Below are positions 11,262 to 13,424 of a stretch of DNA of 64,000 bases, in pieces. Made by a program: the position numbers and the translations under genes. The DNA comes from Treponema sp. (GTDB taxonomy: Bacteria; Spirochaetota; Spirochaetia; Treponematales; Breznakiellaceae): NCBI GenBank assembly GCA_009787835.1, contig WQSN01000002.1:62001-126000 (forward strand), written 5' to 3'. How positions within the stretch are numbered: position 1 is the first letter of the stretch; every line of letters begins with the position of its first letter. The notes below the pieces were generated by a model. The model had not been told where the DNA came from and searched no databases. It saw only the letters and a program-made list of their open reading frames with translations.

Positions 11262-12590
11262 ATGGAAAACAGAAAAGCGGATAAAACAGAACAACTGGCA
11301 AATATTCCCGCTCAAGCGGTTAATTCCAGGACATTTGTATCTCCTGATCAGAACGCGATGCGGGATGAATATGAAAAATACACGGAAACCCGTCAATTAA
11401 TCGTTAATGATGTAAAATCACGCGTTGAGCAGATACTTGTCATGTTTAACTCAAGACCGGTTATAAGCGGCAGAATTAAGAATTTTTCAAGCTACTATTC
11501 AAAATATATCCGCCTGTTAAGAAGTAATAACGAAGATTTAAAAATTACGGACCTTATGGGAGTTCGGATTATCTGCCCGTTTATTGAGGATCTAAACGCC
11601 TGCGAAGAGCTGATAAAAATAAATTTTGACCTCATAGAAAGAGAGATAAAAGGTCATTTTACATTCAAGGAATTTGGCTATGAATCCACTCATCTATTGA
11701 TAAAAATTCCTCAAAACATCATAGAAAAACGCGGAAACCCTGGCACAGACATTCTGGAAATTCAGATACGAACCATTCTGCAGGATGCATGGGCGGAAGT
11801 TGAACATGAACTTGTCTATAAGGCGGAATTAAACCCGTTTGATGAGCCAATGAAGCGAAAACTTGCCGCGGTTAACGCGAGTCTTACTCTGGCAGACATT
11901 ATTTTCCAGGAGATACGCAGTTATCAGAGAAAATATACAAAGGAAATGGGAAAAAGGCGGGAAAGTTTTTACCAAAAAATTGAAGAATCAACAGATGTGC
12001 TTCTTTTCTCTGAAGAACAGGAACAGAGAACCTTACCGCCGGTTTTTGATATAGACAACCTGGACTCACCTTCCACAAAAAATAATTCCCAATTAAATGA
12101 CAGCGTCTCCATTGATGACCTTCTGGTACAGGCTCTGTCCGCTCATAATCTGAATAATTTCAGCGAAGCGATAAACCTGTATACAAATATTCTTAAGTTT
12201 AAACCAAAGCAAACTATATGCGCTATCATTTTTAAACACCGGGGTATGGCGCATTTCGCGTGTTCACAGTACAACGAAGCAATTGAAGATTTCTGCCTTG
12301 CACTTGAACTTGATGATAAATCCTATAAAGCCGCCTACTACTGTGGCGTTGTCCGCTCTGTTTTAAAACAATATTCACAGGCAATAGACGATTATACTCA
12401 TTCACTTTCCATAAACCCATACCAGTCATTCTGCCTTTTCAGGCGCGGTCAGGCATATTACCATATCGGCGATTACCCGCAGGCCTTATCCGATTGCGAA
12501 GACTCCCTTTTACTGGAACCTGGAAACAAAGCCGCAATAAAATTTAAAGAATTGCTCATCGAAAAGCTAAAAAACATTGATCTTGTTTAG
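11262..12590 (+). CDS. RelA/SpoT-type alarmone synthetase domain fused to TPR repeats
   Basis: Residues about 45-215 form a RelA/SpoT nucleotidyltransferase domain: SGRIKNFSSYYSKYIR, TDLMGVRIICPFIED (catalytic Asp region), FGYESTHLLIKIP, and EIQIRTILQDAWAEVEHELVYK. Such domains transfer pyrophosphate from ATP to GDP/GTP to make (p)ppGpp. There is no HD hydrolase domain. The C-terminal half holds at least three tetratricopeptide repeats (NNFSEAINLYTNILKFKP, QYNEAIEDFCLALELDD, QYSQAIDDYTHSLSINP). A TPR tail in place of TGS/ACT implies control by a protein partner. The ATG follows TTAAGGAT, just after the flaA terminator. Confidence 0.85.
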   Translation: MENRKADKTEQLANIPAQAVNSRTFVSPDQNAMRDEYEKYTETRQLIVNDVKSRVEQILVMFNSRPVISGRIKNFSSYYSKYIRLLRSNNEDLKITDLMGVRIICPFIEDLNACEELIKINFDLIEREIKGHFTFKEFGYESTHLLIKIPQNIIEKRGNPGTDILEIQIRTILQDAWAEVEHELVYKAELNPFDEPMKRKLAAVNASLTLADIIFQEIRSYQRKYTKEMGKRRESFYQKIEESTDVLLFSEEQEQRTLPPVFDIDNLDSPSTKNNSQLNDSVSIDDLLVQALSAHNLNNFSEAINLYTNILKFKPKQTICAIIFKHRGMAHFACSQYNEAIEDFCLALELDDKSYKAAYYCGVVRSVLKQYSQAIDDYTHSLSINPYQSFCLFRRGQAYYHIGDYPQALSDCEDSLLLEPGNKAAIKFKELLIEKLKNIDLV

Positions 12591-12616
12591 TATTGCAGAA
12601 AATTATCACTATTAAC

Positions 12617-12645
12617 TTGCCAAAAATTCAAAAAATTCATATAAT
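12617..12645 (+). promoter_or_regulatory. strong promoter of the tRNA-Arg gene
   Basis: TTGCCA (12617-12622), a 17-bp spacer and a perfect TATAAT (12640-12645) lie 11 bp before the mature tRNA 5' end. This supports active transcription of the interrupted tRNA gene. Confidence 0.75.
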
Positions 12646-12656
12646 AACAGAAAGAC

Positions 12657-12772
12657 GGCCGAGTAGCTCAGTGGATAGAGCAGTTGCCTTCTTCAAGAGA
12701 TTATTAAAGTTGAAAAATCATGTAGTCTTTTGGAGAAGCAACTGGTCGGGAGTTCGATTCTCTCCTCGGTCA
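12657..12772 (+). tRNA. tRNA-Arg(UCU) with a 43-nt insertion in the anticodon loop
   Basis: The acceptor arms are GGCCGAG (12657-12663) and CTCGGTC (12765-12771) with one G-U pair; the discriminator A is at 12772 and no CCA is encoded. The D arm is GCTC/GAGC, the anticodon stem GTTGC (12683-12687) / GCAAC (12738-12742), and the T arm GGGAG-TTCGATT-CTCTC. Without 12693-12735 the anticodon loop reads CTTCTAA, the normal Arg(UCU) loop, and the tRNA has 73 nt. The insert folds onto the loop: 12689-12704 pair with 12722-12737 in 16 consecutive pairs (four are G-U). Known bacterial tRNA introns are group I and far longer. A strong promoter suggests the gene is expressed. Confidence 0.75.
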
Positions 12773-12827
12773 AACTGAAATTTCAGGAATTTTTAAACAT
12801 CCGCCGTTCTGAGCGTTTAACTGGTTT

Positions 12828-13424
12828 TTACTTTTTCGCTAATCCGCTTTTTGCGATTTTTCCTCTTACAACAGCGGAAGTCTGTTGGTCGCCCAGATAA
12901 ACTTGAATCTTCTTAATTTTATTTTTTGTTTCCGGGATTTTCACCTTTTCAAAGAGATTTACACGCTGGGTAGTTGTGCGTAATTCATGATCAAGCCTTT
13001 TACGCTGTTCCTCGACAATCGCCGCTTCAAGATCTAAAAGGAGCGCCTTTTCCATGCTTTCTACAGCACCGTCCAGCCAGGCAGGAGTGCGCGCAAGATC
13101 GTACTCTGATATATCAAACTCTGCGCCTTCAAAGATAGGGATTGGGACGCCTGCGACATTTCCATAGCTTGTTTTAAGGTATTTAATTTTTAATATGTCT
13201 TTTGTAAAAAAACCTTTCTCGCCAAAAACACCAATCCAGGGTTTAAAAGATTCATCCAGAGCGCTTTTAGCGGCTTTTAATTCAGCAAGGCGTATATCTG
13301 TCAGCCGAATCTCCCCCTGTAATTGCTGTTTTTTCAGCATTAATGTCGGAAGATACCGTTTATACATTTTAAGAGAATCTTTTTGTTTTTTCAGCTCGTT
13401 TTTAGTGAGTCTGATTTTTGCCAT
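12828..13424 (-). CDS. atpD: V-type ATPase subunit D
   Basis: Subunit D is part of the central rotor stalk of the V/A-type ATPase. The 198-residue product starts MAKIRLTKNELKKQKDSLKMYKRYLPTL, the conserved N-terminal coiled-coil arm, and has the matching C-terminal helix (ERKRLDHELRTTTQRVNLFEKVKIPETK-type region). The family length is about 200-210. It lies 12 bp after atpB in the operon order E-DUF2764-A-B-D. Usually I and K, the membrane subunits, follow in spirochaetes; here transcription runs toward the tRNA-Arg gene instead and no I or K gene is present. Confidence 0.92.
   Translation of the reverse strand: MAKIRLTKNELKKQKDSLKMYKRYLPTLMLKKQQLQGEIRLTDIRLAELKAAKSALDESFKPWIGVFGEKGFFTKDILKIKYLKTSYGNVAGVPIPIFEGAEFDISEYDLARTPAWLDGAVESMEKALLLDLEAAIVEEQRKRLDHELRTTTQRVNLFEKVKIPETKNKIKKIQVYLGDQQTSAVVRGKIAKSGLAKK

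Follow-up and report, generated by a model that had tools for sequence, protein, structure and literature searches.

A short hairpin insert between positions 36 and 37 of tRNA-Arg(UCU) in Treponema and phages is probably a third sort of tRNA intron

How can a tRNA gene serve translation if its transcript buries its own anticodon in a helix? The question is raised by the tRNA-Arg(UCU) gene at 12657..12772 (forward strand) of the window, i.e., the whole 64,000-nucleotide stretch of Treponema sp. DNA analysed here, which belongs to a 3.08-Mb draft genome of 143 contigs (G000; 96% complete, 8.4% contamination). This gene matches positions 1-71 of the 71 of the Rfam tRNA model (RF00005, 54.6 bits), with every arm intact and CCA not encoded; ARAGORN did not call a tRNA-Arg(UCU) at 12657-12772. 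Its 5′ exon (12692 being the last base of 12657..12692) ends in U36, the third anticodon base, its 3′ exon (12736..12772) begins with A37, and 43 nt (12693..12735) lie in between, all on the forward strand. As the earlier note had claimed, excising this insert leaves a 73-nt tRNA with the anticodon loop CTTCTAA. The pairing of the insert with the anticodon loop, described in the same note, was reproduced by the fold: U33-U36 and insert nt 1-12 (12689..12704, +) face insert nt -14 to -1 and A37-A38 (12722..12737, +; negative numbers count back from the 3′ junction) in an uninterrupted helix of 16 consecutive pairs that runs through both junctions and for which the covariation described below also argues. 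The interrupted tRNA folds at -48.4 kcal/mol, whereas 200 dinucleotide shuffles gave -28.2 +/- 3.3, none of them folding as well, and this unspliced fold hides the anticodon. A promoter had also been noted, and a promoter-like -35/-10 site is indeed present upstream (TTGCCA-17-TATAAT, 12617..12645, +), assigned by its match to 11 of the 12 consensus bases; with three such sites in the region versus 1.0 in shuffles, it is by itself weak evidence of expression.

The boundary of the insert is fixed at 36/37 because relatives of the same genus have the uninterrupted gene. In ten of their genomes (G003, G005, G010-G014, G024, G031, and G032), the query matches in two parts that directly abut, 1-36 and 80-115/116; the anticodon loops of these empty sites read CTTCTAA. 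The boundary in the window is unique, since no base at the junctions (5′ exon ...CTTCT, insert T...G, 3′ exon AAG...) lets the insert slide. The gene is flanked by that of a RelA/SpoT-domain protein with TPR repeats (11262..12590, +). Of 20 loci from the genus, 19 have a homologue of this protein no more than about 1.5 kb from the tRNA, so that this is one orthologous locus found with and without the insert. At one further locus (L005, G033:C41, 328-364), only the 3′ half of a tRNA-Arg(UCU) follows unrelated sequence carrying a partial copy of the anticodon stem; its 5′ half was not found in draft genome G033, and the locus is perhaps the integration site of a mobile element.

Does the same insert recur in other spirochaetes, as the earlier note had wondered? 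When 390 genomes of the order, a sample drawn from a larger group, were scanned with a pattern, 11 matched, and the insert was present in three Treponema only: the window genome (43 nt), Treponema sp. Co191P3bin32 (G022, WQSW01000005.1; 43 nt), and Co191P1bin45 (G027, WQRT01000017.1; 28 nt), the remaining eight matches being chance or intact tRNAs. Co191 designates the termite Cornitermes sp. in the relevant part of its source (PMC7024585). A narrower pattern run against the collection of named genomes matched 13 stretches, among which only the two Treponema metagenome-assembled genomes (MAGs) Co191P3bin32 and Co191P1bin45 were of the insert type and two (L099 and L106) were archaeal tRNAs with inserts; this pattern demanded GGATAGAGC, a RAG end, and GG and thus misses divergent members. 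Chance or an assembly artefact was rejected as the origin of the insert, given three genomes with differing insert sequences at a common site and with a common helix. In the tree of the flanking protein, the three insert-bearing treponemes group together in 0% of 200 bootstrap trees, good support being confined to 4 of the 16 inner branches; with a tree of such low support, patchy loss or lateral gain may lie behind the distribution. A second interrupted copy in the window genome assembly (G000:C109:1675-1775, L029) sits in a fetched locus identical to that of G027 over 3,101 of 3,101 nt, and its contig was treated as a contaminant from a co-occurring species and left out of the counts.

A second, intact tRNA-Arg(UCU), which the earlier note had named as the finding to speak against an intron, was sought in the three drafts; none was detected. 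In G000, all 49 tRNA matches were accounted for, with Arg anticodons GCG, TCG, CCG, and CCT next to the interrupted TCT gene, and the same four without an intact TCT were found among the 38 tRNAs typed of 45 matches in G022 and the 37 typed of 40 in G027. These inventories scored 150 of 160-192 first-look candidates per genome, and the matches left untyped in G022 and G027 were the lowest scoring, outside those listed, or ones whose sequence was not retrieved; the intact tRNA-Arg(UCU) of the relative G013 scores 69.8 bits, and the tRNAs listed go down to 52. Moreover, a whole-genome DNA similarity search found an intact tRNA-Arg(UCU) in many relatives and none in the G000, G022, and G027 drafts, and all 16 matches to the pattern GAGCN6YTTCTRA in these three do not fold as tRNA. 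AGA accounts for 17 of the 125 Arg codons in five genes of the window. With AGA in use and no other tRNA for it detected, the interrupted tRNA-Arg(UCU) seems to be needed for AGA, barring an intact copy in the missing few per cent of these draft MAGs (94-96% complete). The suggestion that the RNA is not a translator is, for the same lack of a second detected tRNA for AGA, unlikely to hold for Treponema.

The insert is also carried by phages. A viral scan set up without any condition on the 3′ end of the insert returned nine stretches, comprising four interrupted tRNA-Arg(UCU) genes (L113, L128, L147, and L317, all interrupted at 36/37 and with inserts ending in AG), three intact ones, and two that did not fit (L313 and L316). 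A wider viral scan, in which a RAG end was required, yielded 58 stretches and 15 clean interrupted tRNAs (score of at least 18 with at most one mismatch, all other fits scoring 8.2 or less). One more viral tRNA-Arg(UCU) (L356, 1-90) has a 29-nt insert whose visible part is like that of L344/L371; the stored locus lacks its 5′ end, and it was left out of the count. These phage inserts measure 25-38 nt and occupy the same 36/37 site of tRNA-Arg(UCU).

Several carriers are isolated phages, and the class is therefore open to direct test. L113 is the isolated Aeromonas phage PX29, and L380 and L362 are Aeh1 and Ah1 by tRNA sequence match. In the isolated Aeromonas phages PX29, Aeh1, Ah1, AsFcp_4, and phiWae14, and in avDM12-TAAL, the interrupted tRNA lies between two tRNA-Leu genes and gp57B, with one extra gene within this neighbourhood in phiWae14, and phiAS5 has an uninterrupted tRNA there, i.e., an empty site. 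Ahp1_CNU-2021 also has an interrupted tRNA-Arg(UCU). An intron class would explain how these genes have been annotated: as tRNA-Lys in two pieces in PX29, as tRNA-Glu(UUC) in Aeh1, and not at all in Ah1 and avDM12-TAAL. Accessible sections of the Aeh1 genome paper list a tRNA-Glu UUC and no tRNA-Arg UCU, and mention no such intron (PMC1524935). In L320-L326, a short inverted repeat, AACACATTG ... CAATGTGTT, encloses the tRNA-Arg of the Aeromonas phages, and the tRNA body inside it differs strongly between phages, as if whole tRNA genes had been swapped.

What do these inserts have in common? The set comprises 20 distinct inserts of 25-43 nt (18 plus those of Ahp1 and L617), 3 from Treponema and 17 from phages. 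U33-A38, U34-A37, and U36-A(-2) can pair in all 20 and C35-G(-1) in 19, letters that the search pattern demanded for most members, the A opposing U36 not being demanded for the window. The next pairs were not demanded: between nt 1-8 and -3 to -10, 135 of 160 cells pair in register, against 35-46% when slid by one to three. Among 12 lineage representatives, 82 of 96 cells pair, whereas 3′ strands dealt anew among them averaged 49 and peaked at 72, none of 20,000 trials reaching the observed value; this surplus argues for a helix kept by compensating changes. The first insert base is C or U in all 20, the first insert pair is C-A in 3 of 20, and nt 5-9 are unpaired in L349/L353. A RAG end was demanded by most of the searches that found members; where it was unforced, it appeared in 4 of 4 members from the nine-stretch viral scan and in 3 of 3 found by homology (AsFcp_4, phiWae14, and Ahp1), and the insert of L617, which came from the Lys anticodon scan, ends in A.

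A second shared element lies inside the helix. AG stands at -12,-11, separated from the 3′ junction by 10 nt, in 17 of 20 inserts (the exceptions being CG in L344 and L371 and GA in L128) and in 10 of 12 lineages, whereas shuffled interiors gave a mean of 0.7 lineages and never more than 5 in 20,000; any dinucleotide at any tested offset reached at most 7 lineages in 2,000 shuffles. Facing the AG, U9 is found in 13 of 18 inserts and U10 in 15 of 18. The spacing is common to Treponema and phage inserts, their tRNA bodies differing. The window insert has all of these features, namely, the 36/37 site, a pyrimidine as first base, the covarying helix, and AG at -12,-11, within a TAG at 12723..12725 (+) followed by 10 nt to the junction.

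Such constancy bears on whether the insert leaves the RNA at all. If it stayed, the product would be an RNA with a masked anticodon. Phages might, for example, use it as a decoy for anticodon nucleases, and in treponemes the gene would be dead and an intact copy would have gone unassembled. The unspliced fold does hide the anticodon and the genomes are drafts, but all three lack a detected intact copy while relatives have the intact gene at the same locus, the tRNA body and helix are kept, and the 36/37 site and AG spacing are constant over many lineages, so that we regard retention of the insert as improbable.

The restriction of the hairpin insert to the UCU anticodon is provisional: in scans for Glu(UUC), Lys(UUU), Gly(UCC), and Arg(CCU), at most three loci (L235, L864, and L917) resemble the UCU class among the matches listed. 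The specific test covered 80 loci of the 120 stretches listed by the Glu scan and 80 of the Gly scan, and a generic test covered 810 loci. On a viral contig, L235 (8549-8647) is a tRNA-Glu(UUC)-like sequence whose 27-nt hairpin insert is built in a similar way but lacks the AG spacing. On viral contigs of 368 and 350 kb, L864 (542-640) and L917 (1313-1410) are tRNA-like, with 27- to 28-nt hairpin inserts that follow CTCCT and pair one register off the UCU class. Seven further viral loci (L202, L215, L253, L262, L267, L599, and L641), several with Lys anticodons, carry short anticodon-loop inserts that look like bulge-helix-bulge (BHB) introns by eye and are perhaps introns of archaeal viruses.

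Which kind of element is this insert? A decayed group I intron was among the readings of the earlier note, and a miniature one may be considered with it. The 36/37 site is shared by the group I introns of tRNA-Ile(CAU) and tRNA-Arg(CCU), and the U before the insert and G at its end recall their splice sites. The likeness proved superficial: the region 12560-12860 gave no group I match up to E=10, only the tRNA model reaching its cut-off; 25-43 nt leave no room for a catalytic core; and the hairpin pairing is kept by compensating changes across lineages. Moreover, U36 faces A at -2 and not G in 20 of 20 inserts, so the G.U splice-site pair with an internal guide is not formed. The group I reading was rejected for the window and is very improbable for the class as a whole. 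What stood of the earlier readings is the new type of short tRNA intron, for which the only detected tRNA-Arg(UCU) in three drafts, the empty sites, the covariation, and the phage members all speak. As far as sequence comparison can tell, the insert is thus likely a spliced intron of a new class, met to date in tRNA-Arg(UCU) of a few treponemes from termite guts and of a number of phages. As such, it is probably a third sort of tRNA intron, one excised by proteins, in organisms whose known tRNA introns had all been self-splicing.

The geometry of the helix points to a candidate nuclease. In the window, insert nt 1 faces -3, and both junctions lie inside the uninterrupted helix; cuts at both junctions would therefore give hairpin and tRNA alike 2-nt 3′ overhangs. 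Overhangs of 2 nt at the 3′ end are the product geometry of RNase III, whose 3′-OH/5′-phosphate ends are substrates of classical RNA ligases. The complementary ends, the long stem, and the 2-nt 3′ stagger are all present, as read from the pairing. Genes for RNase III are present in G000, G022, and G027, as well as in insert-free G013, the G000 enzyme having both the catalytic and the double-stranded-RNA-binding domains. It was not found in eight phage records, several of which are fragments; a phage-encoded RNase III was thus set aside as the nuclease, and in phages without a detected gene the host enzyme would act. In the consulted portion of one source, RNase III cuts stem-loops and removes intervening sequences from rRNA, and for the Escherichia coli enzyme a 12-bp stem with a tetraloop is enough for single-strand cleavage, no double cut being stated there (PMC8708148).

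Candidate ligases are at hand in the same genomes. PF09511 (Rnl1-type) occurs in G000, G022, and phage PX29; the G000 protein aligns with the solved T4 RNA ligase 1 and scores 73 bits with the NCBIfam model, whose cut-off is 242. PF09414 ligases occur in G000, G022, and G027 and score 152, 140, and 131 bits, respectively, with the DRB0094 model (cut-off 151, passed by G000 only), and the G000 protein is close to the solved Naegleria ligase. PX29 encodes both kinds. When the loci of the DRB0094-type gene were compared (L189 463-2685, L192, L190, and L191), it adjoined the gene of the CCA-adding enzyme in G022 and an open reading frame (ORF) with the C-terminal domains of that enzyme in G000, lay one ORF from RNase III in G027, and adjoined RNase III in insert-free G013. 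Hence, G000, G022, and G027 each have RNase III and at least one ligase. No ligase, on the other hand, follows the insert distribution exactly: PF09511 was not found in G027, yet G012 and G013, which are free of the insert, have it; PF09414 occurs, too, in four of nine genomes without a detected insert; neither was found in the 147-kb phage record of L317, nor PF09414 in the 120-kb record of L366. The search for other enzymes that the earlier note had in mind thus turned up these ligases and, among the three insert-bearing genomes only in G022, RtcB. RtcB was not found in G000 and G027 and, present in one of three insert-bearing genomes, was rejected as the ligase common to insert carriers. 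No homologue of the splicing endonuclease (PF01974) was found in 10 records (3 draft genomes and 7 phage records), the four archaeal controls being positive, and EndA was set aside.

We propose a model in which the ends of the insert would pair with the anticodon loop to form a continuous helix of about 14-16 bp that sits atop the anticodon stem and ends in a loop; the conserved UU/AG pairing would lie roughly a helical turn away from the junctions. Both strands would be cut, between U36 and insert nt 1 and between G-1 and A37, by an RNase specific for double strands, the RNase III of the host being the most likely one, which would leave 2-nt 3′ overhangs and release the hairpin. The tRNA would be left nicked in its anticodon loop with 3′-OH/5′-phosphate ends, and an ATP-dependent RNA ligase of the T4 Rnl1 or DRB0094 type would close the nick. 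For this course, with RNase III as the nuclease (an assignment drawn from geometry) and a ligase of either type, we see even odds; because no ligase follows the insert exactly, we put the enzymes forward as a hypothesis. For the proposal as a whole, that bacteria and phages would share hairpin introns of 25-43 nt at 36/37 of tRNA-Arg(UCU), and that RNase III together with an ATP-dependent RNA ligase would remove them, we estimate a probability of roughly 45%.

The same new class of intron could instead be spliced by another nuclease, a host or phage enzyme reading the AG/UU loop motif, together with another ligase. The AG-N10 spacing and the U.G/U-A pairs near the loop resemble a specifically recognized motif, something that plain RNase III may do without, and no known ligase follows the distribution of the insert; the 2-nt 3′ stagger nevertheless fits RNase III, and neither RtcB (in G000 and G027) nor PF01974 (in 10 records) came to light. 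We see this course as possible, though clearly the less likely one. Nicked anticodon loops inactivate tRNA, and a cut at 36/37 splits the anticodon loop of a tRNA beside which no other for AGA was detected in three genomes. Both points argue against a variant in which RNase III would excise the insert as an intervening sequence, the halves never being rejoined and the nicked tRNA still working or serving as a source of fragments; excision of such sequences does fragment rRNA in the part of the source that treats it (PMC8708148), and we nonetheless consider unjoined halves quite unlikely.

If the proposed RNase III and ligase pathway holds, bacteria would have a protein-catalysed tRNA splicing that does without the archaeal/eukaryotic endonuclease, the intron would move between phages and hosts, and Rnl1- and DRB0094-type ligases would have an everyday substrate. 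The intron class would point to a physiological function of RNA ligases that bacteria and phages encode and that are known mainly from repair. Short introns that are neither ribozymes nor of the BHB kind, present both in a bacterial tRNA that seems essential and in T4-like phages in culture, would be a third kind next to those treated in the available parts of PMC3400036 and PMC8450103. Short introns in bacterial or phage tRNA are not reported in the accessible portion of the open-access literature, and one source, in the part at hand, places all phage introns observed up to 2014 in protein-coding genes, even though phages have many genes for tRNA (PMC3984707).

Each of the known systems shares something with the hairpin insert. 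Group I introns of tRNA-Leu(UAA), -fMet, -Ile(CAU), and -Arg(CCU) are alike in their anticodon-loop site, the U before them, and the G at their end; they are, however, ribozymes, mostly >200 nt in bacterial tRNA according to the excerpt of PMC8450103, whereas the insert at 25-43 nt is without space for a catalytic core. The BHB introns of archaeal and eukaryotic tRNA are likewise short, protein-spliced, and helix-guided, at 16-44 nt in archaea as given in the corresponding section of PMC3400036, but their canonical site is 37/38 and they depend on a bulge-helix-bulge and PF01974, whereas the hairpin insert sits at 36/37 in a continuous helix; the BHB reading was rejected given the 16 consecutive pairs through the junctions in the window and PF01974 in none of 10 records. 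Intervening sequences that RNase III excises from 23S rRNA resemble the insert in forming an additional stem, as described in the available text of PMC8708148, but they are 100-200 nt long and the rRNA stays fragmented, whereas a tRNA anticodon loop should need rejoining to decode. Closest on the side of sealing is the repair of PrrC-cut tRNA-Lys by T4 Pnkp/Rnl1, in which a phage RNA ligase seals an anticodon-loop nick (PMC3400036, in the part covering this repair); that pathway mends damage and removes no insert, and PrrC ends need Pnkp, whereas RNase III ends would not.
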